DNA from: Piscinibacter sp.
Lineage (GTDB): Bacteria; Pseudomonadota; Gammaproteobacteria; Burkholderiales; Burkholderiaceae_C
DNA: 64,000 bases
Assembly: GCA_019635485.1 (NCBI GenBank)
Contig: JAHBZL010000018.1
Location: forward strand, 35,046-99,045
Direction: 5' to 3'
This document shows positions 43,185 through 55,145 of the stretch, piece by piece (within the stretch, counting starts at the first letter, position 1; each line of letters begins with the position of its first letter). Below the pieces are notes generated by a model. The model saw nothing but the letters and a program-made list of their open reading frames with translations, did not search any database and was not told the DNA's origin. Both the position numbers and the translations under genes were made by a program.

Positions 43185-45047
43185 TCAGTGCTGACGGCCG
43201 CAGTCTTCGAGGAAGCCGATCAGCTCCTCGCGCAGCTCGTAGTAGCGCGGGTGGGCGACCAGTTCCTCGCGGGTGCGCGGACGCGGCAGCGGTACCTCCA
43301 TGATCTGGCCGATGCGGGCGCGCGGGCCGTTGGTCATCATGACCACGCGATCGGCCAGCAGGATCGCCTCGTCGACGTCGTGTGTGACCATGATCGCGGT
43401 GACCCGGCTGCGCGTCCAGACCTCCATCAGCACCTCCTGGAGCTCCCAGCGCGTCAGCGAGTCCAGCATGCCGAAGGGCTCGTCGAGCAGCAGCATCTTC
43501 GGCTGCAGCGCGAACGCGCGGGCGATGCCGACACGCTGCTTCATGCCGTTGGACAGTTCAGCCGCGCGCTTGTTCATCGCGCCGCCGAGACCCACCCGGC
43601 CGAGGTAGTAGGCCACGGTGTCGTGCCGCTCGGCCTTTGAGGCGTGCGGGAAGACCCGTTCCACGCCGAGCATCACGTTCTCGTAGGCCGTCAGCCACGG
43701 CACCAGGCTGGGCGCCTGGAACACCAGGCCGCGGTCCGGTCCGGCGCCGGCCACCTCGCGCCCGTCGAGCAGGATCACGCCGGAGGAGATGTCCGTCAGG
43801 CCGGCCATCATGGACAGCACCGTCGACTTGCCGCAGCCCGAGTGCCCGATCACGGAGATGAACTCGCCGCGGCGGATCTTCATCTCGAAGCCGTCGACCA
43901 CGGTCTGCGGGCCCTTCGCGCTCGGATAGACCTTGACCACCTTGTCGAACTCGACGAAGCGGGCATCGCCGGCGCGCGCCGGGACGCTGTCGGTCGGCGC
44001 GGGGCCGGCGGGCGGCACGTTGCCTGCCTCGATGGACTCGGCCAGCGCCGCGTGGCGCAGCCGGAACAGCGACGCGGCCGTCGGCAGGCGCGCACCGCCG
44101 CGCAGGTCGGCCGGGGTCAGCGTCGGCAGCGGGATCACCTGCGCGCCTCGGCCGGCGTCGCGCTGATGGGCCAGGCCGATCAGGTGCTGCGTGATCTCGC
44201 CGCGCAGCGCCTGGAAGCGCGGTTCGTGGTTCATCTCGCGGCGGTCGCGCGGACGCGGGATGTCCACGACGTAGGAGGGCCCGAGCTTGGCGCGTGGCCC
44301 GGTCTCCAGCGGGATGATGCGGTCGGCCATCATCAGCGCTTCGTCCACGTCGTTCGTGATCAGCAGCACCGTCTTGCGGTCTTCGCTCCAGATGCGGACG
44401 ATCTCGTCCTGCAGGTTCGCGCGGGTCAGCGCGTCCAGCGCGGACAGCGGCTCGTCCAGCAGCAGCACGTCCGGGTCGGTGGCGAGCGCGCGCGCGACCG
44501 AAACGCGCTGGCGCATGCCGCCCGACAGCTGGGCCGGGAACTTGTCGATCGCGGGGCTGAGGCCGACCATGCCGACGTAGCGCTTGACGCGCTCGGCACG
44601 CGCCTCGCGCGACTCCGACGCGAACACGCGGTCGACCGCGAGGGCGACGTTGTCGCGCACCGTCAGCCAGGGCATCAGCGAGTAGCTCTGGAACACCACG
44701 CCACGGTCCGGACCAGGGGCCACGATCGGCCGTCCGTCCTTTTGCACCACGCCGGAATCCGGCGCCGTCAGGCCGGCCAGCAGGTTGATCAGCGTGGTCT
44801 TGCCGCTGCCGGAAAAACCGACGATCGCGACGAACTCGCCGGGTTCGACGCGCAGGTTCAGGCCGCTCAGCACTTCGGTGCGGCCCGCGCCGCTGCCGTA
44901 GCCCTTGCTGACATCGCGCAGTTCGAGCGCCGCCGTGCCGGGCACCGCGGCCGGAACCGCCTCGGGGGCCGCGGCGCGCGATGTTTCGCGTGCCGGCATG
45001 CCAGAGGAGGGCGCCGCGGCGAGCGGCGCCTTGAGAGCAAGATTCAT
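43185..45047 (-). CDS. Nitrate ABC transporter, two ATPase domains fused (NrtC-NrtD type)
   Basis: 620 residues with two complete ABC ATPase domains. Domain A (about 40-265): Walker [10 protein letters not shown], signature LSGGMRQR, Walker [16 protein letters not shown]. Domain B (about 370-610): Walker [10 protein letters not shown], signature LSNGMKQR, Walker [16 protein letters not shown]. Both resemble NrtD/SsuB-type subunits. In cyanobacteria NrtC is an ATPase fused to an NrtA-like domain and NrtD is separate; here the two ATPases are in one chain. The linker (about 270-365) has no known domain. It gives energy to nitrate import with NrtB. Confidence 0.9.
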
Positions 45048-45061
45048 CGTGGGCCCCCGGT

Positions 45062-46030
45062 TCAGCGGCGCGCCGCCAGGTTCTGCAGCAGCAGCATCAG
45101 GCGGTCCAGCGCGAAGCCGATCAGGCCGATCGTGAACACCGCCACCATGATGCGGCTGAGCGAATCCGAGCTGCCGTTCTGGAACTCGTCCCAGACGAAC
45201 TTGCCGAGCCCGGGGTTCTGCGCCAGCATCTCGGCGGCGATCAGCACCATCCAGCCCACGCCGAGCGAGAGCCGCATGCCGGTGAAGATGAACGGCAGCG
45301 CCGACGGCAGCACGATCTTGCGCACCCGCGTGCCCAGCGGCAGCTGCAGCACCTTGCCGACGTTCACCAGGTCCTTGTCGACCGAGGTCACGCCGACGGC
45401 GGTGTTGATCAGCGTGGTCCACAGCGAGCACAGCGTCACCGTGATGGCCGAGATCAGGAACGATTTCTCGAACAGCGGCTTGCCCGTCGTCACGTAGACC
45501 GCGCTGACGATCAGCGTGACGATCGGCAGCCAGGCCAGCGGCGAGACCGGTCGGAAGATCTGCACCATCGGGTTGATCGCGGCCTGCAGGATGCGCGACG
45601 AGCCGGCCAGGATGCCCAGCGGCACCGCCACCAGCGTCGCCAGCAGGAAGCCGGTGAACACCGTGATCAGGCTGGTGATGATCTGGTCGATGTAGGTCGG
45701 CTTGCCGGTCCAGTCGAAGTGGCGCGGCTGGTAGCTCGGGTCCTCGGCCAGGCGCTGCTTGTTGCGCGCCTCCTGGCGTTCGAAGAACTCGGCGCGCTTC
45801 TGGCGCTCGGCCCGGTGGTCGGCCCACAGCGCCTGCGCCTGCTCCAGCACCTGGGCCGGCCCGGGCACGGCGCCCAGGCTGGTCTGGATGCGCGGCGCGA
45901 TCCCGGCCCACAGGCCGAGGAAGACGGCCATCGCGAGGAGCGGCACGCCCACCGAGAGCAGCAGCGATCGGACCAGCTCGCGCGGATCGCGGCGACCGAG
46001 GTCGCCGAACAGCTTCATGACTTGTTCCAT
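45062..46030 (-). CDS. nrtB: Nitrate ABC transporter permease NrtB
   Basis: 322 residues. Inner-membrane permease with an N-terminal span, then a periplasmic, charged insert (about 75-110, rich in Arg/Glu) and the typical BPD-type fold with [46 protein letters not shown], the loop that contacts the ATPase. Gaps of 14 and 28 bp to its neighbours. Confidence 0.93.
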
Positions 46031-46058
46031 GGCGGTTTCCCGTCGAGGTCCGGCGCCG

Positions 46059-47429
46059 TCAGACGGCGTCGGCCGACTTCAGGCCGATCTTGAACTTGGA
46101 CAGGTAGTCGTTCGGCTTGCGGCCGTCGAACACGATGCCGTCGATGAAGCCGTCCTGCGGGCCCTTGAAGCCGTCGCTCTTCATCGGGAAGTCGGCTTCC
46201 TTCGCCTTGCCCTCGGCGATCAGTGCCTTGGCGGCCTTCAGGTAGGTCTCGGGCAGGTAGACCTTCTTGGCGGTCTCGAGGTACCAGCTGTCGGGCTTGG
46301 TCTCGGTGATCTGCCCCCAGCGGCGCATCTGCGTCAGGTACCAGATCGCGTCGCTGTAGAAGGGGTAGGTCGCGAAGTAGCGGAAGAAGACGTTGAAGTC
46401 GGGCATCGGCCGCTTGTCGCCCTTCTCGTACTCGAAGGTGCCGGTCATGCTGTTGCCGATCACCTCGGCGTCGGCACCGACGTAGTTCGGCTTGGCCAGC
46501 ATCTTCACGGCCTCGACGCGGTTGGCTATGCTGGCATCGAGCCACATGCAGGCGCGGATCAGCGCCTTCACCACGGCGACGTGCGTGTTCGGGTTCTTCT
46601 CGGCCCAGGCGCGCGTGACGCCGAACACCTTCTCCGGGTTGTTCTTCCAGATCTCGAGGTCGGTCACGACCGGCACGCCGATGCCCTTGAACACGGCCTG
46701 CTGGTTCCACGGCTCGCCGACGCAGTAGCCGTTGATCGTGCCGGCTTCCATCGTGGCGGGCATCTGCGGCGGCGGCGTTACCGACAGCAGCACATCGGCG
46801 TTCTTGGTGCCGCTGATGTCGCTGGAGGTGTAGTAGCCGGGATGCAGGCCGCCGGCGGCCAACCAGTAGCGCAGCTCGTAGTTGTGCGTCGAGACCGGGA
46901 ACACCATGCCCATCTTGAAGGGCTTGCCCTGGGTCTTCCACTTGTCGACGACCTTCTTCAGCGCGTCGGCCTTGATCGGGTGCTTGACCTTGCCGCCTTC
47001 GGAAGGCAGGAACGGCTTCATCTCGTTCCAGACGGCGTTGGAGACGGTGATGCCGTTGCCGTTCAGGTCCATGCTGAAGGCCGTCACGACGTCGGCCTTG
47101 GTGCCGAAGCCGATCGTCGCGCCGAGCGGCTGGCCGGCGAGCATGTGTGCGCCGTCGAGCTGGCCGTCGATCACGCGGTCCAGCAGCACCTTCCAGTTGG
47201 CCTGCGCCTCCAGCGTGACGTTCAGGCCTTCGTCCTCGAAGAAGTGCTTCTCGTAGGCGACCACCAGAGGAGCGCAGTCGGTCAGCTTGATGAAGCCGAA
47301 CTTCAGCACTTCCTTCTCGGGCAGGGCGGCCTTCTGGGCCCGCGCCTGCGGCAGCCCGAGGGCGGTGGTGCCGAGCAGCGCGGTGGTCCCGGCGAGGAAG
47401 CGGCGGCGGGTGTTGGTCGAATCGGTCAT
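46059..47429 (-). CDS. nrtA: Nitrate-binding protein NrtA with Tat signal
   Basis: 456 residues. A Tat-type signal is visible at the N-terminus ([20 protein letters not shown], cleavage after about residue 31), so the folded protein is exported to the periplasm. The binding fold of the NrtA/CmpA family follows ([55 protein letters not shown]). It delivers nitrate, perhaps nitrite, to NrtB. It is closely related to the NasS gene upstream of it. Confidence 0.93.
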
Positions 47430-47492
47430 GTCGATGCTCCGTGAATGCAGACTTGGACGAGGGTGGTTGCGAGAACTTGCCGGACGTCGCTG

Positions 47493-48722
47493 TCAGGCCA
47501 CATCGAGTGCAGGCACCGGTGCCCGCACGGAGAAACTGTCGGCGTAGGACGCCGGTTGGGTGCCGTCCCAGACGGCTCCGTCGATCAGGCGGCTCGAGCG
47601 CAGCGGCGAGCGCGGCAGCGCGATGCCCAGTGCCCCTGCGGCATCGCGGTAGATGTCGAGACGGTTGACCCGTGTCGCCACGTCGAGGTAATCCGGGTGC
47701 GCGCGCAGCAGGCCCCAGCGGCGGTACTGCGTCAGGAACCACATGCCGTCGCTGAGGTACGGGAAGTTGACTTCGCCGTCGCGAAAGAAGGCCATGTGGT
47801 CGGGGTCGGTCCAGGTGCGGCCGATCCCGTCCTGGTAGCGGCCGAGAATGCGCGGCAGGATCGCCTCGGCGGCGACGTTGACGTACTGCGGGGCCGCGAT
47901 GGTTTCGGCCATCCGGGTCTTGTTCTCCTCGCTGGCGTCGATCCAGCGGCTCGCCTCGAGCAGCGCCATCACGACGGCGCGTGCCGTGGCCGGATGCGCG
48001 GCCGCGAAGTCGGCGGTGCAGCCGAGCACCTTCTCCGGATGGTCCTTCCAGACGTCCTGCGAGCTCGCGGCGTGCACGCCGATGCCGTCGATGATCGCGC
48101 GGTGGTTCCAGGGCTCGCCGACGCTGAAGCCGTCGACGTTGCCGACGCGCATGTTGGCCACCATCTGCGGCGGCGGCACGGTGATGACCTTGGCGTCGGT
48201 CATCGGGTTGATTCCGGCCGAGGCGAGCCAGTAGTACAGCCACATCGCATGCGTGCCGGTCGGGAAGGTCTGCGCGAAGGTGTACGGGCGCGGCTCGGCG
48301 GCCATCAGGCGGGCGAGGGAGGCGGCATCCACCGCGCCACGCTCGGCGAGCGCGCGCGACAGCGTCAGGCCCTGGCCGTTCTGGTTGATCGTCATCAGGA
48401 CGGCCATGTCCTTCTTCGGGCCGCCCACGCCGAGGTGCGTGCCGTAGACCAGCCCGTACAGCGCCTGGGCCATGTCGAGTTCGCCGCTGACCAGCTTGTC
48501 GCGCACGCCGGCCCAGGACGACTCGCGGGTGGGCACGATCTTGACGCCGTGCTTGCGGTCGAAGCCGAGCACCGAGGCCATGATGACTGGCGCGCAGTCG
48601 GTCAGCGGCATGAACCCGATGCGCACCTCCTGCTTCTCGGGGCTCGCCGCGGTCGACGCGCCGGGTCCGACGCGCGGTGCGTCGACGTTGCTCGCCGAGG
48701 GGTTGTCTTGCGTGCGGCTCAT
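47493..48722 (-). CDS. nasS: Cytoplasmic nitrate sensor NasS
   Basis: 409 residues, NrtA-like but without a signal peptide: the first 35 residues are polar, and the fold begins VRIGFMPLTDCAPVIMASVLGF. NVDGFSVGEPWNHRAIIDGIG is the ligand-pocket region. NasS is known to bind NasT and release it when nitrate or nitrite is bound. The adjacent nasT supports this call. It is the first gene behind a leader with a terminator, so the whole nas/nrt operon is probably under NasT control. Alternative: a second periplasmic binding protein, unlikely without a signal. Confidence 0.88.
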   Translation of the reverse strand: MSRTQDNPSASNVDAPRVGPGASTAASPEKQEVRIGFMPLTDCAPVIMASVLGFDRKHGVKIVPTRESSWAGVRDKLVSGELDMAQALYGLVYGTHLGVGGPKKDMAVLMTINQNGQGLTLSRALAERGAVDAASLARLMAAEPRPYTFAQTFPTGTHAMWLYYWLASAGINPMTDAKVITVPPPQMVANMRVGNVDGFSVGEPWNHRAIIDGIGVHAASSQDVWKDHPEKVLGCTADFAAAHPATARAVVMALLEASRWIDASEENKTRMAETIAAPQYVNVAAEAILPRILGRYQDGIGRTWTDPDHMAFFRDGEVNFPYLSDGMWFLTQYRRWGLLRAHPDYLDVATRVNRLDIYRDAAGALGIALPRSPLRSSRLIDGAVWDGTQPASYADSFSVRAPVPALDVA

Positions 48723-48780
48723 CGTGGACTTTGCTGGGTTGGCGGGTTCGGAGTGATCGATACAGCGAAAGGCAAAGGGC

Positions 48781-48830
48781 AAAAAAAAAGTCCACACGTC
48801 TTCAGCCCAGAGGGCCAAGTCCGTGAGGAC
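48781..48830 (-). terminator. Attenuator terminator in the nasS leader
   Basis: On the minus strand the arms GUCCUCAC (48823-48830) and GUGUGGAC (48790-48797) pair over 8 bp with one U-U mismatch; an inner GCCC/GGGC hairpin lies in the loop. It is followed directly by nine T (48781-48789). It lies 59 nt before the nasS ATG, inside the transcript, so it must be an attenuator. Its 5' arm is also the 3' arm of hairpin P2 (48823-48843); the two cannot form together. Confidence 0.82.
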
Positions 48831-48902
48831 GTCGTCGTCCCACCTCGGGCGAGAGCACGATGCCCCGCCTTGGTGATCCCGAAAGGCCGCCGTTGACCTT
48901 CC
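48823..48902 (-). promoter_or_regulatory. ANTAR-type hexaloop leader (antiterminator) of nasS-nrt
   Basis: P1 (48881-48902): an 8-bp stem GGAAGGUC/GGCCUUUC and loop AACGGC, with A1 and G4 as expected for ANTAR binding. P2 (48823-48843): stem GUGGGAC/GUCCUCAC with one bulged U and loop GACGAC; G4 fits but position 1 is G. The 37-nt linker has its own GGGC/GCCC pairing. P2 shares its 3' arm with the terminator, which gives a simple antitermination switch: a NasT-bound P1-P2 prevents the terminator. P2 is less canonical than P1. Confidence 0.7.
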
Positions 48903-48914
48903 GCCTTGAATGTC

Positions 48915-48929
48915 GCAAGCGGCGTGCCA
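48915..48929 (-). promoter_or_regulatory. Sigma-54-type promoter of the nasS-nrt operon
   Basis: Minus strand TGGCACGCCGCTTGC: an exact TGGCAC-N5-TTGC with 10 nt between GG and GC. The predicted +1 is at 48903, one base before hairpin P1. Confidence 0.78.
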
Positions 48930-49000
48930 GCCGAAGGGCCGGCTTTGTGGAGTTTTTCGTGTTGCGGCGCACCATAATTGAGTCGGTCGTCGGGGTGCGC

Positions 49001-49017
49001 TGCACTCGACGGGTGCG
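49001..49017. promoter_or_regulatory. NtrC-like enhancer site upstream of nasS
   Basis: TGCACT-CGACG-GGTGCG, ten of twelve matches to TGCACC-N5-GGTGCA. It lies about 106 bp before the predicted start of the sigma-54 promoter, a usual distance for NtrC. It sits just after the nasT stop codon. Confidence 0.6.
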
Positions 49018-49023
49018 GCCGGG

Positions 49024-49662
49024 TCAGAGCAGGTCCGCGACGTCGACGATGCGTTGAGCGACATCCGCCAGCTTCATGCCGCGATCCATCGCCGACTTGC
49101 GCAACCGGGCGTAGGCGGCTTCCTCGCTGAGCTGGTGGCGCTGCATCAGGATGCCCTTGGCGCGGTCGATGGTCTTGCGCTCGGAGAGCTGGGTGCGCGC
49201 GTCGGCGAGCTCGCGGCGCAGGTTCTCCTCGTGACGAAAGCGTGCCAGCGCCACTTCGAGCACCGGCCGGACGCGCTCGGGCGCCAGGCCGGCAACCACG
49301 TAGGCGGAGACGCCGGCCGCGATCGCCGCGCCGACCTGACTGGTGTCCTCGTCGTTGGTGAACAGCACGATCGGGCGCCGCGCGTCGCGGGTTGCCATCA
49401 CGACATGCTCGAGCGTGTCGCGCGCCTGGCTCTCGGCGTCGACGATGATCATGTCCGGCCCGATCTGGGCCAGCCGTTCGGGCAGGAACGGGTCCGCCGG
49501 CAGCACGGCGACGATGTTGTAGCCGCTCTCCAGCAGCCCGATGCGCAGGCTGCGTGAACGTTCGGCCTCCGCCGCACTCTGGCCATCGTCGATCGGCAGG
49601 TCCTGATCAACGAGGTCGGGCGCGACGATGACAATGCGCAGGGTGGTCGGCGGAACGGACAT
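49024..49662 (-). CDS. nasT: ANTAR-domain antiterminator NasT
   Basis: 212 residues. Receiver-like domain (about 10-135: MIIVDAESQARDTLEHVV with an Asp at the phosphorylation position, and VLFTNDEDTSQVGAAIAAGVSAYVVAGL), then the ANTAR domain (about 145-210: LSERKTIDRAKGILMQRHQLSEEAAYARLRKSAMD). NasT binds RNA leaders of nitrate genes when freed from NasS. It is upstream of nasS on the same strand, with 301 bp between them that hold the sigma-54 promoter and attenuator. Confidence 0.9.
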   Translation of the reverse strand: MSVPPTTLRIVIVAPDLVDQDLPIDDGQSAAEAERSRSLRIGLLESGYNIVAVLPADPFLPERLAQIGPDMIIVDAESQARDTLEHVVMATRDARRPIVLFTNDEDTSQVGAAIAAGVSAYVVAGLAPERVRPVLEVALARFRHEENLRRELADARTQLSERKTIDRAKGILMQRHQLSEEAAYARLRKSAMDRGMKLADVAQRIVDVADLL

Positions 49663-50147: not shown

Positions 50148-50522
50148 TCAGGCGTCCAGGTGGTGAAGTGCCCGCTGCACCTCGGTCTGCCAGGGAAGGG
50201 AATGCACCAATCCGTTCAGATGGACCGCGACCTGGAAAGCGCTCATCGCTTCGCCGCGCGAGTTGACGAGCTTGATGTTCGTCACGAGGCCGAACGGGTC
50301 GGCCATCGCCACGACGCCGTCCTGCACCTCGACCCAGTCCCAGGCGACGCCGGCGACGGGCTCGGCGGTCGTCTCGCCCCACAGCGTCTGGCCAGTGCAC
50401 GGCCCTTCGGCATCGCCCAGACTGAGCACGCGTGTGCCGAGATGCACGAGGTGGAGCGGGGCGTCATCATCGACCTGCCACAATACAGGCGGCCAAGCGC
50501 ATACGATCCAGGCGGGGGTCAT
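50148..50522 (-). CDS. Hypothetical protein upstream of the nasT group
   Basis: 124 residues, family not recognised. It has no membrane span; the sequence is rich in Trp and Val (WDWVEVQDGVVAMADPFGLVTNIKLV) and looks like a small beta-rich protein. It is divergent from the LuxR gene, with 138 bp in between. In the 147 bp downstream (50001-50147) there is only a short hairpin TCGGGG/CCCCGA near 50101-50116. Confidence 0.55.
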   Translation of the reverse strand: MTPAWIVCAWPPVLWQVDDDAPLHLVHLGTRVLSLGDAEGPCTGQTLWGETTAEPVAGVAWDWVEVQDGVVAMADPFGLVTNIKLVNSRGEAMSAFQVAVHLNGLVHSLPWQTEVQRALHHLDA

Positions 50523-50598: not shown

Positions 50599-50618
50599 AT
50601 CTGTAAAACCTTCCAGGG
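50599..50618 (+). promoter_or_regulatory. Possible weak lux box upstream of luxR
   Basis: ATCTGTAAAACCTTCCAGGG, with CTGT-N8-CCAG, close to the CTGT-N8-ACAG pattern. It is 42 bp before the luxR-type start codon, so autoregulation is possible; it could equally act on the divergent gene. Confidence 0.4.
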
Positions 50619-50660: not shown

Positions 50661-51365
50661 ATGCTGCAAGACGGGTACATGTCGGTGCTGGAAGCGAGGG
50701 ACCGCAACGAGTTCCTCGGCCAGGTCGTGCGCTTCACGAAGCGCATGGGCTTCGACACCGTCACCGCGATCACCGTGATCGACCATTACCTGGGCGAGCC
50801 GGAGTTCATCAGCGTCGACAACGCGCCGGCCAGCTTCCGCGAACCGTACGAGGACGGCCGCAAGGATCCGGTGATGCAGCACTGCAAGCGCCAGAGCGTG
50901 CCCATCATCTGGAACCAGGAGACCTACGTCACCGCGGGCCAGGCCGACCGCTGGGATGCGCAGGCGCGCTTCGGCTACTGCACCGGCATCGCGATGGCGC
51001 TGCATCTGCCGGAGGGACGCCACTTTGTGCTCGGCGTCGACCGCGACCAGTCGCTGCCGAGCGATACGATCGAGCTGACCCGCATGGTCGCGGACCTGCA
51101 GCTCTTCGCCGTGCATGCCCAGGAGGCTGCGCAGCGGATCATGGTGCCGTCCTCGCCGCTGGCCGAGGCGCCGAAGCTGACGCCGCGCGAGATCGAAAGC
51201 CTGCGCTGGACGATGGACGGCAAGACCGCCTGGGAAGTCGGCAACATCCTGAGCATCAGCGAGCGGACCGCCGTCCTGCACATCAACAACGCGATGCACA
51301 AGCTGGGCTGCGTCAACAAGCACCAGGCCGTGCTGAAGGCCCTGCGTCTCGGCCTGATCCGCTGA
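50661..51365 (+). CDS. LuxR-type regulator with autoinducer-binding domain
   Basis: 234 residues. The N-terminal part (about 10-165) is an autoinducer-binding domain; the C-terminal HTH (about 172-232) is LTPREIESLRWTMDGKTAWEVGNILSISERTAVLHINNAMHKLG. Compared with TraR, the pocket keeps Tyr61 (Y63 here), Asp70-Pro71 (D69-P70), Trp85 (W84) and Gly113 (G109), but Trp57 is Phe (F59) and the Tyr-to-Asp spacing is three residues shorter. No luxI is in the window, so it is a LuxR solo on present evidence. It is followed by the peptide exporter genes and a strong lux-box-like site. Start at 50661 (MLQDGY) chosen; 50619 is also in frame. Confidence 0.88.
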   Translation: MLQDGYMSVLEARDRNEFLGQVVRFTKRMGFDTVTAITVIDHYLGEPEFISVDNAPASFREPYEDGRKDPVMQHCKRQSVPIIWNQETYVTAGQADRWDAQARFGYCTGIAMALHLPEGRHFVLGVDRDQSLPSDTIELTRMVADLQLFAVHAQEAAQRIMVPSSPLAEAPKLTPREIESLRWTMDGKTAWEVGNILSISERTAVLHINNAMHKLGCVNKHQAVLKALRLGLIR

Positions 51366-51448
51366 TCCGTGCGGTGTCCGATCGGGCGCGCGAGAGCGCG
51401 CGCGGCGGGGCGATCCGTATCCATTTGTTTCCCTGAAACTTGGGATTG

Positions 51449-51468
51449 ACCTGTAAGAGCTGACAGTT
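51449..51468 (+). promoter_or_regulatory. Lux-box-like operator and promoter of the peptide gene
   Basis: ACCTGTAAGAGCTGACAGTT, with the CTGT-N8-ACAG core of lux boxes. A -10-like TGAAAT lies at 51490-51495, giving a start near 51502, about 43 bp from the box centre; this is the class II LuxR arrangement in which the box covers the -35 region. The transcript would have about 42 nt before the peptide ATG. Confidence 0.7.
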
Positions 51469-51543
51469 ACGGGAATCCGGGGCCACTGCTGAAATGGGTT
51501 CACGCGCAAACGTCGCGCGAGCCGATTCAGCCAGGAGCCCCAG

Positions 51544-51705
51544 ATGCAAACGCAACGCCGCACCCCGTCCACGACTGCCCCGTCCGACAAGAAGGAGGTC
51601 AGCACCGAGCGTCGGACCGAACAGCGTGCTGCACCGATCGAACTCGATGCCCGCCAGCTCCGTCAGGTGGCCGGCGGCACCTCGCTCCCGGCCAAGACCT
51701 GGTAA
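51544..51705 (+). CDS. Double-glycine leader peptide with eight-residue core
   Basis: 53 residues. A polar, Arg/Thr-rich first half is followed by a classic GG leader: Leu at -12, Leu at -7, Val at -4 and Gly-Gly at -2/-1 in LDARQLRQVAGG. Cleavage would release TSLPAKTW, eight residues with no Cys and a C-terminal Trp. A strong AGGAG lies 7 nt before the ATG. The next gene (84 bp on) is an HlyD-type adaptor and then a C39-peptidase ABC exporter, the enzyme type that cuts such leaders. The short core suggests a signal peptide rather than a bacteriocin, but both are open. Confidence 0.85.
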   Translation: MQTQRRTPSTTAPSDKKEVSTERRTEQRAAPIELDARQLRQVAGGTSLPAKTW

Positions 51706-51789
51706 GCGCGAATCCTGGCTCGCCGCGCGTCGCGCCCCGCCGCGTCGCGCCGGCCACAGGCCCGCGTGTCCGGGCCATCGCACTTTCCG

Positions 51790-53013
51790 ATGAGCAGTCT
51801 GTTCCGTCCCGAAGTCCTCGAGAGCCGTCAGAACCAATGGCTCGGAGGCATCAGCCTGATCCGGCCGCTGCCGCTGCAGTGGTTGACCGCGTTCGCGGTG
51901 CTGGCCGCGGCGGCCGTGCTCGCCTACTTGGCGCTGGGCGAGTACACGCGCAAGGCGCGCCTGAGCGGTCACCTGGTGCCCGACGGTGGGGTCGTGAGAC
52001 TGGTGGCGCCGCAGGTCGCGACGGTGCTCGAGAGCCACGTCGCGGAAGGTCGCACGGTGCAGGCCGGCGAGCTGCTCTACGTGCTGTCCGTCGACGCCGC
52101 GAACCAGCGCGGCAGCGTGCGTGATTCACTCGACGCGCGCCGCCGCAGCCTGCGCGACGCTGCCATCCAGCAGCAGGCGCTCGACCGTGAGCGCCTGACC
52201 GCCTTGACGCGCCAGCTGGAGGGCATGCGCGACGAACTCGCCCAGCTGGACCACGAAGCGCAGCTGCAGGCACAGCGGCTCGGGCTCGCCGAGAAGGCTC
52301 TTCAGCGACTGGAGGCACTGCGGGCCGACAACTTCGTCTCCCCGACCCAGGTGCAGAGCAAGGCCGAGGAGGTGCTCGGCCTGCGCGCTCAGGCGCAGTC
52401 GCTGCTGCGTCAGCGTGCCACCCATGTGCGCGAGATGGAGCAGCTTCAGGCGCGCGCGCGCGAGGTGCCGTTGCAGGGCGAGTCGCGCCGCGGCGAGATC
52501 GACCGCGACATTGCCGAACTGGCACAGGAAGCGGCCGAGAACGAGGCCCAGCGGCGCATCGAGCTGCGCGCACCGCACGACGGCGTGCTGACCGGCGTGG
52601 TGGCCCAGGTCGGCCAGTCGGTCGGCCCATCGGTGGCCCTGGCCAGCCTGCTGCCCTCCGGGGCGCGACTGGAGGCGCACCTGTTCGCGCCGTCCAGCGC
52701 CATCGGCTTCGTTCAGCCGGAGCAGGCGGTGCAGCTGCGCTACCAGGCCTACCCTTACCAGAAGTTCGGCCTGCAGACCGGCCATGTCACGCAGGTCTCG
52801 CGCGCACCGATGCAGGCCAGCGAGCTGGACGGGCCGGCGGGCGAGCCGCTGTACCGCATCACCGTCGCGCTCGACCGGCAAGACGTGTCGGCCTACGGCC
52901 GGCCGCAGGCGCTGGTGCCCGGCATGCAGCTGGAGGCCGACGTGATGCTGGAGCGCCGCCGCCTGATCGAGTGGCTGTTCGAGCCGCTGCTTGGCCTGGC
53001 GGGGCGGGTCTGA
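51790..53013 (+). CDS. HlyD-type membrane fusion protein of a peptide exporter
   Basis: 407 residues. One membrane span (WLTAFAVLAAAAVLAYLAL, about 32-50), then a lipoyl-like half (GHLVPDGGVVRLVAPQVATVLESHVAEGRTVQAGELLY), a long coiled coil (about 110-245) and the second half (IELRAPHDGVLTGVVAQVGQSVGPSVALASLLP). It links the inner-membrane exporter to an outer-membrane channel such as TolC, which is not in the window. Stop lies 2 bp before the exporter gene. Confidence 0.92.
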   Translation: MSSLFRPEVLESRQNQWLGGISLIRPLPLQWLTAFAVLAAAAVLAYLALGEYTRKARLSGHLVPDGGVVRLVAPQVATVLESHVAEGRTVQAGELLYVLSVDAANQRGSVRDSLDARRRSLRDAAIQQQALDRERLTALTRQLEGMRDELAQLDHEAQLQAQRLGLAEKALQRLEALRADNFVSPTQVQSKAEEVLGLRAQAQSLLRQRATHVREMEQLQARAREVPLQGESRRGEIDRDIAELAQEAAENEAQRRIELRAPHDGVLTGVVAQVGQSVGPSVALASLLPSGARLEAHLFAPSSAIGFVQPEQAVQLRYQAYPYQKFGLQTGHVTQVSRAPMQASELDGPAGEPLYRITVALDRQDVSAYGRPQALVPGMQLEADVMLERRRLIEWLFEPLLGLAGRV

Positions 53014-53015
53014 GC

Positions 53016-55145
53016 ATGCTGAACGCGCTGCGACTCGGGCTCGGCGGTCACCGCCTGCCGATGCTGCTGCAGACCGAGGCCGCCGAGTGCGGCCTCGCGT
53101 GCCTCGCGATGGTCGCTGCGCACCATGGCCTGCGCAGCGACCTGCAGAGCCTGCGGCGCCGCTTCTCGCTGTCGCTGAAGGGGGCGACGCTGATCGACCT
53201 CGTGCGCATGGCCGACCAGATGCAGCTGAACGCCCGCGCGCTGCGCGTCGAGCTCGACCAGCTCGACCAGCTGGCGCTGCCCTGCGTGCTGCACTGGGAC
53301 CTGAACCACTTCGTCGTGCTCAAGGAGGTGCGGCGCGGCCATGCCGTCGTGCACGACCCGGCGCGCGGCGTGCGCAGGCTGCCGCTGGCCGAGGTGTCGC
53401 GCCACTTCACGGGGGTGGCGCTGGAGCTGGCGCCGCGGGCCGATTTCCGGCCGCAGGCCGAGCGGCAGGCGATCGGCCTGCGCGCGCTGTTCGGCCACGT
53501 GACGGGACTGAAGCGCTCGCTGCTGCAGGTGTTCGCCCTGGCGCTCGCCCTCGAGGTGTTCGTGCTGCTGTCGCCGTTCTTCATGCAGTGGGTCGTCGAT
53601 GGCGTGCTCGTCAGCGCCGACCGCGACCTGCTGGTGACGCTCGGGGTCGGTTTCGGGCTGCTCGTGCTACTCCAGGTGGCCACCGGCGCACTGCGGTCCT
53701 GGTCCGTGCTGCACCTGTCCAGCACGTTGAACCTGCAATGGCTCGCGAACGTGTTCGCGCACCTGATGCGGCTGCCGGTCGACTGGTTCGAGAAGCGCCA
53801 CACCGGCGACGTGATGTCGCGCTTTGGCGCGGTGCAGCAGATCCAGCAGACGCTGACGACCAGCTTCATCGAGGCCGTGCTGGACGGACTGCTGGTGGTC
53901 GTCACGCTGACGATGATGGCGATCTACAGCCCGCTGCTGAGCGCGATCGCGCTGGCGGGCGTGGGCCTGTACGCGCTGCTGCGCTGGGCCTTCTTCCGGC
54001 CGCTGCGCGACGCCACCGAGGAGGCAATCGTGCACGAGGCCAAGCGCTCGACGCACTTCCTCGAGTCTCTGCGCGGCGTCGCGGCGATCAAGCTGTTCAA
54101 CCGCCAGGAGGACCGCCAGGCGCGTTTCATGAACCTGGTCGTCGACGCGATGAACGCGGACATCCTGAAGCGCAAGCTCGAACTGCTGTTCGGCGTGCTG
54201 CACAAGCTGGTCTTCGGGCTGGAGCGTGTCGCGGTGATCTGGGTCGGCGCGCTGCTGGTGCTGGACCAGCGCTTCTCGGTGGGCATGCTGTTCGCGTTCT
54301 TCGCCTACCGCGAGCAGTTCGCGCTGCGGGTCAGCGGCCTGATCGACAAGGCGGTCGAGTTGAAGATGCTGCGCCTGCAGGCCGAGCGGCTCGCCGACAT
54401 CGTGCTGACCCCGCCGGAACCGCAATTGCAGACCCCACCGCGCCGGCATGAGCTGGCCGCACGCCTCGAACTCGACGGCCTGCGCTTCGCCTACTCCGAC
54501 GGCGAGCCGGCGGTGATCGACGGGCTGAACCTGACGATCGAGCCGGGCGAGTCGGTGGCTGTCGTCGGCCCGTCCGGCTGCGGCAAGACCACGCTGCTGA
54601 AACTGATGCTGGGCATCCACGCGCCGCAGGCCGGGGAAGTGCGCGTCGGCGGCGTGCCGTTGCGGCAGCTGGGCCTGTCGCACTGGCGGTCCATGATCGG
54701 CACGGTGATGCAGGACGACCAGTTGTTCGCCGGCTCGATCGCCGACAACATCAGCTTCTTCGATGCCCAGCCGGACCTCGACTGGCTGGAGCAATGTGCC
54801 CGGGCCGCCGCCGTGCACGACGAGATCGAGGCCATGCCGATGGGCTACCACACGCTGATCGGCGAGATGGCGGTCAGCATCTCCGGCGGGCAGAAGCAGC
54901 GCATCCTGCTGGCGCGTGCGCTCTACAAGCGGCCCCGCTTCCTGTTCCTCGACGAGGCGACGAGCGCGCTGGACGTGGACCGCGAGCGCGAGGTCAACCA
55001 GGCGATCCGGCAGCTGGACATCACGCGGGTCGTGATCGCCCACCGCCCGGAGACCATCGCCGCCGCCGGACGCGTGGTGGTGCTCAGCGAGGGACGCGTC
55101 GCGCAGGACCTGCGCAGCGTCGGGGGATCGGCGGCCCAGCGCTGA
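53016..55145 (+). CDS. Peptidase-containing ABC exporter (C39 peptidase, PCAT)
   Basis: 709 residues. Residues 1-130 are a C39 peptidase with Gln19, Cys25 (QTEAAECGLACLAM), His98 (DLNHFVVL) and Asp114 (HDPARG), all needed for GG-leader cleavage. The membrane part (about 155-440) has six spans. The ATPase (about 480-709) has Walker A VGPSGCGKTTLLKL, signature SISGGQKQR and Walker B FLFLDEATSALD. It should cut and export the 53-residue peptide. It is similar to LagD/CvaB type proteins. No second substrate gene is visible between 51.4 and 55.1 kb. Confidence 0.95.
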   Translation: MLNALRLGLGGHRLPMLLQTEAAECGLACLAMVAAHHGLRSDLQSLRRRFSLSLKGATLIDLVRMADQMQLNARALRVELDQLDQLALPCVLHWDLNHFVVLKEVRRGHAVVHDPARGVRRLPLAEVSRHFTGVALELAPRADFRPQAERQAIGLRALFGHVTGLKRSLLQVFALALALEVFVLLSPFFMQWVVDGVLVSADRDLLVTLGVGFGLLVLLQVATGALRSWSVLHLSSTLNLQWLANVFAHLMRLPVDWFEKRHTGDVMSRFGAVQQIQQTLTTSFIEAVLDGLLVVVTLTMMAIYSPLLSAIALAGVGLYALLRWAFFRPLRDATEEAIVHEAKRSTHFLESLRGVAAIKLFNRQEDRQARFMNLVVDAMNADILKRKLELLFGVLHKLVFGLERVAVIWVGALLVLDQRFSVGMLFAFFAYREQFALRVSGLIDKAVELKMLRLQAERLADIVLTPPEPQLQTPPRRHELAARLELDGLRFAYSDGEPAVIDGLNLTIEPGESVAVVGPSGCGKTTLLKLMLGIHAPQAGEVRVGGVPLRQLGLSHWRSMIGTVMQDDQLFAGSIADNISFFDAQPDLDWLEQCARAAAVHDEIEAMPMGYHTLIGEMAVSISGGQKQRILLARALYKRPRFLFLDEATSALDVDREREVNQAIRQLDITRVVIAHRPETIAAAGRVVVLSEGRVAQDLRSVGGSAAQR

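Follow-up and report, generated by a model that had tools for sequence, protein, structure and literature searches.

Organization of the locus

The stretch of DNA analyzed here (the window) comprises 64,000 nucleotides of a Piscinibacter sp. contig (JAHBZL010000018.1, assembly GCA_019635485.1), and the system in question is a cassette in which a gene for a LuxR-family regulator is followed by a gene for a short peptide precursor. In order, the cassette consists of a divergent rsaM-family gene, luxR, a lux box, the gene for a 53-aa precursor with a double-glycine (GG) leader, hlyD, and a gene for an ATP-binding cassette (ABC) exporter with a C39 peptidase domain, after which lies tsaD. An earlier reading, made without database searches and called here the sequence-only reading, had recognized luxR, the lux box, the precursor, hlyD and the exporter, and all of these are found on one strand where it had placed them. 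It had overlooked the rsaM-family gene and a palindrome beside it (50601–50616).

The luxR gene (50661–51365, plus strand, as are the features that follow) encodes an autoinducer-binding domain, as proposed earlier, together with a GerE domain (Autoind_bind, E = 1.2e-21; GerE, E = 1.3e-14). The lux box palindrome CTGTAAGAGCTGACAG (51451–51466) is the strong lux-box-like site noticed before, and 75 bp separate its 18-bp consensus site from the precursor start. The sequence AGGAG (51533–51537) is the likely ribosome-binding site of the precursor gene (51544–51705, stop included), whose product ends in ...LDARQLRQVAGG followed by TSLPAKTW. In general, double-glycine leaders have hydrophobic residues at positions −4, −7 and −12; here, the 45-aa leader (51544–51678, ending ...IELDARQLRQVAGG) has V, L and L, respectively. 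The predicted mature peptide, TSLPAKTW (51679–51702), contains PAKTW (51688–51702), which corresponds to a conserved P-x-x-x-W motif (PxxxW). The genes for the membrane-fusion adaptor HlyD (51790–53013; HlyD_3, E = 9.4e-12) and the exporter (53016–55145; Peptidase_C39, E = 3.5e-35, with the C39 domain at about 53058–53441) come next. On the minus strand, the rsaM-family gene (PF16245/DUF4902; 50148–50522), assigned by profile and fold matches, diverges from luxR, and between the two lies the second lux-box-like palindrome, CTGTAAAACCTTCCAG, with 3 mismatches relative to the main box.

Conservation of the gene set

Relatives were collected by scanning genomes with a LuxR alignment, and 80 of 101 confirmed loci were kept. 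Their titles name Piscinibacter, Rhizobacter, Rubrivivax, Methylibium, Roseateles, Mitsuaria, Paucibacter, Ideonella, Pelomonas, Albitalea, unclassified Burkholderiales and others. The sequence-only reading had given, as one ground for rejecting its proposal, a lack of conservation of the small gene between luxR and the exporter in relatives. The opposite was observed: a precursor gene lies 3′ of luxR in all 79 loci that could be judged, 68 of these precursors having been picked by a rule that requires a terminal W and a GG-like site, without demanding the P or its spacing, and 11 by reading translations. At least three ribosome-binding-site bases precede 77 of the 79 chosen starts. A fixed rule, which requires a ribosome-binding site and a PxxxW that ends or nearly ends a small open reading frame (ORF), finds a gene after luxR in 78 of the 79 loci, missing L117, while it is satisfied by 1.9% of 3950 dinucleotide shuffles and by 2/79 reverse strands.

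The rest of the cassette is also widely kept. An rsaM homologue adjoins luxR in 80/80 loci, and hlyD and the exporter gene are complete, adjacent and downstream in 68/80. In the remaining 12, either the contig ends before the exporter (L054, L095) or the exporter is not adjacent (10 loci), and all 10 genomes of the latter kind carry another exporter of the same type elsewhere (a sequence match only, with a best match of 37–76% identity). Seven loci (L042–L044, L099, L103, L113 and L116) retain a GG-leader precursor without an adjacent exporter, which the related exporter elsewhere may serve. Among the neighbouring window ORFs of at least 110 aa, only rsaM, luxR, hlyD and the exporter gene are conserved in most of the 80 loci. 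The tsaD gene, downstream of the exporter in 14/80, is a neighbour rather than a part of the system, and the genes for an NMT1-like binding protein and an ABC ATPase upstream (43185–49064, minus strand) are apparently unrelated neighbours.

An order-wide profile search was made with a leader-plus-core alignment of 60 of the 80 precursors, with at most 20 candidates scored per genome. Matches at E ≤ 0.01 were obtained in 17/399 genomes, two of which are genuine (the window's own genome and one congener), and no GG-PxxxW precursor was present in the regions of the eight loci read among 17 other profile-matched loci. Absence outside the family is weakly supported by this search, because of the limit of 20 candidates per genome and because only 2 of the family's 12 genomes were matched. 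One locus from another family of the order (L155) has a short GG-leader ORF (VGGGSLAVVEM) and thus a different GG peptide. Two congeners (L037, L038) gave weak matches to a single sequence, which were rejected because they overlap, in another frame, the end of a gene called ferredoxin-like from its Cys motif.

The precursor and its PxxxW core

The leader pattern of the window's ORF, which the sequence-only reading had already called a double-glycine leader, recurs across the 80 precursors (the window and 79 relatives): G occupies −2 in 80, V or I −4 in 80, L −7 in 76, and L, I or M −12 in 80. In terms of a GG(A/S)-type leader, −4, −7 and −12 are hydrophobic in 80, 79 and 80 of the 80, respectively; the rule used to place the cut relied on −2 and partly on −4, and −12 was not in it. 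After the GG, P-x-x-x-W with exactly three spacer residues is found in 80/80. The last pentapeptide unit comes in 35 types, the commonest being PKGTW, PKGGW and PRGGW. The number of units also varies, with one in 41 precursors and two to five in the other 39, and in 34 of these 39 the copies within a precursor are identical (mean 4.9 and maximum 14 in 5000 permutations). Such identity within a precursor, despite the 35 types found between species, is as expected if the exact pentapeptide must be recognized.

Nothing follows the last W in 72/80 precursors, a count to be read with the preference of the picking rule for a final W. Four loci (L080, L096, L097 and L117) have charged or longer tails past the last Trp (TKE, DRK, RVK and AVALESSPTSLI), which hint at C-terminal trimming or at tolerance, and two (L118, L253) have a long Gly/Asp-rich linker between the GG and a lone DAPKGTW unit. 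The predicted mature part is 6–13 aa long in 38 of the 41 single-unit precursors. The sequence-only reading had proposed an eight-residue peptide: TSLPAKTW is indeed what is predicted after the GG here, but the conserved unit is the pentapeptide PxxxW and not the eight residues.

The ratio of non-synonymous to synonymous polymorphism (pN/pS), estimated from 12 close pairs of relatives, some of which share members, amounts to 0.04 within the core and to 0.07 across the final 16 residues of the leader, compared with 0.39 in the spacers and 0.36 in the N-terminal part of the leader. As judged from these ratios, the core is under strong purifying selection, and the end of the leader is selected as well. 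A modification typical of ribosomally synthesized and post-translationally modified peptides (RiPPs), such as a Lys-Trp link, was considered and rejected, as the window's neighbours include no conserved modifying enzyme and the Lys is not conserved.

Loci without leader and exporter

When the family was searched, LuxR relatives (E ≤ 1e-30) turned up in 83/299 genomes. In one genus, called here the leaderless genus, this LuxR is present in 16/21 genomes, and 15 of the loci contain luxR, rsaM and a lux-box-like site; the sixteenth (L275) is without rsaM and peptide and was excluded. The flanks of these 15 loci hold no GG leader and no exporter homologue (1.5 kb in all, and several kb in L226, L236, L244 and L256). 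Instead, there are short ORFs of 10–62 aa, for instance MQVLLPRNAW and MQATHQTQTTTLLPRNGW; the 62-aa ORF has seven copies of GPRGTW and another ORF has three of PKGGW. By reading, PxxxW is present in 13/15 loci; no ATG start was seen in L269. The fixed rule finds 12/15, compared with 2.4% of 750 shuffles and 0/15 reverse strands.

In the LuxR tree, the leaderless loci fall in three places, mainly inside a branch rich in GG-leader loci. This tree comes from a short search that left 25/67 inner branches open. Such a placement suggests that the leader and the exporter were probably lost together while LuxR, the lux box and PxxxW stayed.

Tiny ORFs, among them MICLPRVGW and ...FPRTGW, also come after luxR in a more distant LuxR clade (11 loci, 42–49% identity, one of them in the window's genus). 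The fixed rule finds 3/11 of these, and a looser pattern, devised after the loci had been viewed, finds 10/11 versus 1/550 shuffles. In another locus, a LuxR of 38% identity adjoins rsaM and is followed by a GG-leader ORF ending in PPTWPTW, possibly a variant of the peptide family (L231, 7133–7831).

A W just before the stop codon of a short ORF is reminiscent of regulatory leader peptides, and the small ORF could be imagined as a ribosome-arrest or attenuation leader that controls the downstream genes. This explanation is hardly credible given that a GG leader is present, that the repeats reach seven copies, that residues follow the W in 8/80 precursors and that, in three leaderless loci (L236, L244, L256), the next long co-directional ORF is about 0.5 to 2 kb away.

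Exporter, adaptor and the predicted fate of the peptide

The C39 domain of the exporter structurally matches 6mpz, a double-glycine protease domain, and ComA/PCAT. The earlier statement that its peptidase residues are intact holds, as Cys25, His98 and Asp114 are invariant in 68/68 aligned exporters (the window and 67 relatives). Cleavage after the GG and secretion of the peptide are predicted. An NHLP-type exporter was discarded, as the score of 509 bits against TIGR03796 is below the curated cut-off of 853.3. The LuxR-linked short-peptide export system of the sequence-only reading fits this comparative evidence, with the qualification that some lineages can do without the adjacent exporter.

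A GG leader, HlyD and a C39 exporter are the usual export set of bacteriocins, and the peptide might accordingly be a bacteriocin or microcin whose production is controlled by LuxR. Some weak matches to RiPP or bacteriocin leader models go in the same direction: the leader-core stretches of 60 relatives gave at most 4 members per NCBIfam model, the best being the CCRG-2 family of RiPPs (4 members, E = 8.7e-7). For the window's precursor itself, neither Pfam nor NCBIfam gives a family match at E ≤ 1. Nevertheless, a toxin is very improbable, since the mature part mostly has 6–13 residues, none of the neighbouring ORFs of at least 110 aa in the window is a conserved immunity candidate, and identical pentapeptide repeats and leaderless 10-aa versions are unlike a toxin.

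The lux boxes

A site that agrees with CTGTAAGAGCTGACAGTT in at least 13 of 18 positions precedes the precursor in 79/80 loci, the window included, mostly 64–91 bp (about 75 bp) from the precursor start; L111 has 12 matching positions. Shuffled gaps average about 9–10 matches, and 13 is reached at least once in 20 shuffles in 6/80 rows. The second palindrome also has a counterpart in relatives, as the pattern CTGTnA....T..CAG occurs in the rsaM-luxR gap of 78/80 relatives and in 0/1600 shuffles. In the window's own assembly, which is 84% complete, CTGTAAGAGCTGACAG is the sole exact match to CTGTNAGNNNTNACAG. Thus, no target can be proposed beyond autoregulation of the operon. Allowing 3 mismatches, a regulon scan gave 20 forward and 15 reverse sites, compared with 28 and 29 for a reversed control, so that, with no excess over this control, no additional lux-box targets can be named.

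Covariation between peptide and receptor

Distances were correlated across 68 cassettes by partial Mantel tests, which are liberal for related sequences. The pentapeptide distance correlates with that of the LuxR ligand domain given HlyD (partial r = 0.22) and also given HlyD, the exporter, RsaM and the DNA-binding domain (0.25), while its correlation with HlyD given the LuxR ligand domain is 0.01. In other words, core divergence tracks the LuxR ligand domain (and RsaM) and not the exporter. As expected, the leader covaries with the C39 domain given the nucleotide-binding domain (partial r = 0.27).

The peptide might, on the other hand, be an intracellular co-factor or brake of LuxR or RsaM, with secretion in the majority of loci being a means of removal or secondary. 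Such a role would suit the short leaderless genes without an adjacent exporter, as well as the covariation of the core with RsaM in addition to LuxR. It is nonetheless improbable, because most loci keep a selected GG leader (pN/pS 0.07) and a C39 exporter with intact catalytic residues, which argues that export matters.

The LuxR receptor and its neighbour RsaM

The AlphaFold model of the window's LuxR (mean predicted local distance difference test score, pLDDT, 85.5) is nearest to QscR, RhlR and SdiA, with a best E of 2.2e-15. Besides Autoind_bind and GerE, Pfam gives a sub-threshold Sigma70_r4 match, and the TPR-type domain of RRNPP receptors is not among the matches. Pocket residues were mapped onto LasR by alignment in 104 LuxRs of at least 60% identity (72 named and 32 other), with TraR numbers given by analogy. 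The equivalent of Y56 is Tyr in 0/104, that of W60 (TraR W57) is Trp in 4/104 and changed in 100/104, and that of Y64 (TraR Y61) is Tyr in 16/104; the window's LuxR has A, F and Y at these positions. All five LuxI-linked LuxRs examined have Y-W-Y. According to the available part of PMC10134790, TraR W57, Y61, D70, P71, W85 and G113 form the acyl-homoserine lactone (AHL) cavity, and changes at W57 and Y61 mark solos that respond to plant signals. Of these six, the W57 and Y61 equivalents are mostly changed here, and the D, P, W and G are retained in 103–104 of the 104.

The synthase that would make an AHL was mostly not found. LuxI (PF00765) was found in 6/50 locus-bearing genomes (50 of the 80 searched), and it had no match in the window's own, incomplete assembly, where the controls were silent too, while the same model does match in relatives. 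No proline iminopeptidase or other peptidase adjoins luxR, whose flanks are rsaM and the precursor in the window and 79 relatives. In four genomes (L219, L220, L221 and L222), three to five luxR paralogues are grouped at the peptide locus; these may be extra receptors for different peptides.

In one alternative, LuxR would be a solo responding to an AHL or to some other small molecule, and the PxxxW peptide would be its output, a secreted effector and not the ligand. The retained AHL-receptor residues (Asp, Pro, distal Trp, Tyr and Gly) and the six genomes with LuxI would agree with it, and known LuxR solos respond to AHLs or plant compounds, as far as the accessible text of PMC10134790 goes. 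This alternative is considered unlikely in view of the 44/50 genomes with no LuxI match, the alteration of the TraR W57 equivalent in 100/104 LuxRs, the covariation of the core with the ligand domain and, finally, the fact that PxxxW stays with LuxR after the exporter and leader are gone, which would be unexpected if the peptide were purely a secreted output.

RsaM is recognized from both profile and fold. Among the homologues of the divergent gene, 15/22 match PF16245 at E ≤ 0.01 (best E = 1.2e-5); the window's copy has E = 4.2e-4 and 20.6 bits, under the 25-bit cut-off. Its AlphaFold model (pLDDT 82) has a Foldseek match to 4o2h, an RsaM homologue (E = 6.8e-6, TM 0.69/0.63). In the portion of PMC10710839 that was available, rsaM is always reported beside luxI and/or luxR. 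Across the order, a search for RsaM gave matches in 4/399 genomes, two of them outside the family; for one of these (L188), no LuxR match was present within 2.6 kb.

A proposed peptide autoinducer for LuxR

Taken together, these observations are best accounted for by a peptide-based circuit, similar to quorum sensing, that is built on a LuxR-family receptor, with the PxxxW peptide as LuxR's own autoinducer in the place of an AHL. A probability of roughly 0.58 is assigned to this reading. The sequence-only reading had suggested a possible hybrid quorum-sensing circuit with the peptide, an AHL or another molecule as ligand; such a circuit fits the comparative evidence and, of the ligands offered, the peptide is better supported than an AHL, because LuxI is found in only 6/50 genomes, pocket residues are changed, the core covaries with the ligand domain, and PxxxW is kept after loss of leader and exporter.

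In such a circuit, as we infer it, LuxR would bind the lux box and activate the operon of precursor, hlyD and exporter genes. Cleavage at the double-glycine site would fall to the exporter's C39 domain, and secretion of the short P-x-x-x-W peptide (TSLPAKTW in the window) to the HlyD/ABC pair. The peptide, probably trimmed around PxxxW, would then re-enter cells and bind the ligand domain of LuxR as an autoinducer, closing a positive loop at the point where LuxI and an AHL would otherwise stand. RsaM may tune this loop, as RsaM proteins do in AHL systems. In the loci without leader and exporter, the peptide may signal intracellularly or exit by another route.

Several observations weigh against a peptide autoinducer. 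The motif is not universal: in the leaderless genus, one locus has five PxxxxW copies and one ends in LPRVGGG, without W; in the distant clade, PxxxW, PxxxxW and endings without W account for 3/11, 4/11 and 4/11; and two GG precursors of the family outside the 80 (L250, L255) carry PxxxxW, so that the spacing is not absolute. Residues trail the last W in 8/80 precursors. In two more loci (L251, L252), where the precursor beside luxR has four copies of SPKGTW, no lux box precedes it by pattern; no exporter lies within the stretch examined there. Outside the family, an rsaM-luxR pair (L187/L279) has neither a peptide, by PxxxW and GG patterns, nor LuxI in 8 kb. As for the receptor, the equivalents of D73, P74, W88, Y93 and G113 are retained in 103–104 of 104 LuxRs, the window's LuxR retains that of Y64, and 6/50 genomes do carry LuxI; the AHL-receptor residues still in place leave some probability to an AHL-like or other ligand. 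Known LuxR pockets are small, so an eight-residue peptide would need trimming or another mode of binding, and an importer linked to the locus was not found. Finally, RsaM, too, is correlated with the core (partial r = 0.28), and the leader also covaries with the LuxR ligand domain given HlyD (0.22). The covariation is, thus, not specific to the core, which weakens the argument drawn from it.

If LuxR does recognize the peptide, these loci could represent a new class of cell-cell signalling, a broader proposal to which slightly better than even odds are given. It would consist of LuxR receptors with a ribosomal (X)P-x-x-x-W autoinducer encoded next to them, pherotype-like variation between species and two styles of export, that is, a GG leader with a C39 exporter or leaderless mini-genes of down to 9–10 codons. 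It would have arisen in one beta-proteobacterial family by replacement of luxI in an rsaM-luxR system. LuxR is the textbook sensor of AHLs, and short ribosomal pheromones are the textbook signals of Gram-positive bacteria; if the proposal is true, this division is broken. In Roseateles, Rubrivivax, Rhizobacter, Methylibium, Piscinibacter and their relatives, a candidate ligand would be at hand for many orphan LuxR solos. The signal-receptor pair, moreover, would be genetically encoded and readily varied, with a ligand deducible from genome sequence. The question of what unpaired LuxR proteins sense would thereby become directly testable with synthetic peptides.

Comparison with known systems

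Among the open-access papers listed by the searches made, no system in which a LuxR has its own encoded peptide signal was found. The closest relatives in layout are the LuxI/LuxR AHL quorum-sensing systems with RsaM, for instance in Burkholderia and Acinetobacter. They share with the loci described here the LuxR fold, a lux-box-like palindrome before the presumed signal gene, the rsaM neighbour and a regulator that directly adjoins the gene for signal production. Here, however, a ribosomal PxxxW peptide gene and an exporter take the place of luxI, and the Y56 and W60 (LasR) pocket residues are changed. Divergent rsaM-luxR solos have been described as topology type 6 (PMC10710839), with the same pair in the same orientation and partly in the same genera (Pelomonas and Albitalea, and also Kinneretia); in the available portion of that text, neither a peptide gene nor an exporter is described, and the word peptide occurs 0 times.

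The nearest precedents encountered are PipR and orphan LuxRs of Shewanella, both linked to ligands of peptide nature. The OryR/PipR solos share altered TraR W57/Y61 positions (in PipR, the Tyr only), and PipR answers a plant signal and, at high concentration, the tripeptide Ser-His-Ser, according to the accessible parts of PMC4981722 and PMC10134790. In contrast to the peptide encoded beside the receptor here, their signal is exogenous, and they have peptidase neighbours and, for PipR, an importer. Orphan LuxRs of Shewanella baltica are likewise connected with a peptide-related ligand, but this consists of diketopiperazines, that is, cyclic dipeptides rather than a ribosomal peptide encoded beside the receptor (PMC6370745, PMC13220807, as far as their available text goes).

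In its working, the circuit proposed here can be likened to Rgg/SHP or ComR/ComS of streptococci, without being a member of that family. The accessible part of PMC13361665 describes a short peptide gene beside the regulator, leaderless in some cases, and an intracellular receptor; those receptors have TPR domains and their peptides leave through PptAB, whereas here the receptor is a LuxR and the exporter is mostly of the C39 type.

With regard to export, ComAB with the competence-stimulating peptide (CSP), microcin V and RaxX/RaxB are GG-peptide/C39 exporter systems, and the double-glycine leader and the ABC exporter with a C39 peptidase are common to these and to the present loci. The latter differ by the adjacent LuxR and RsaM and by a mature part that is mostly of 6–13 aa in single-unit precursors and contains PxxxW, in multi-unit precursors mostly as exact repeats. 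Each family of components is known from elsewhere, and it is their pairing that is new.

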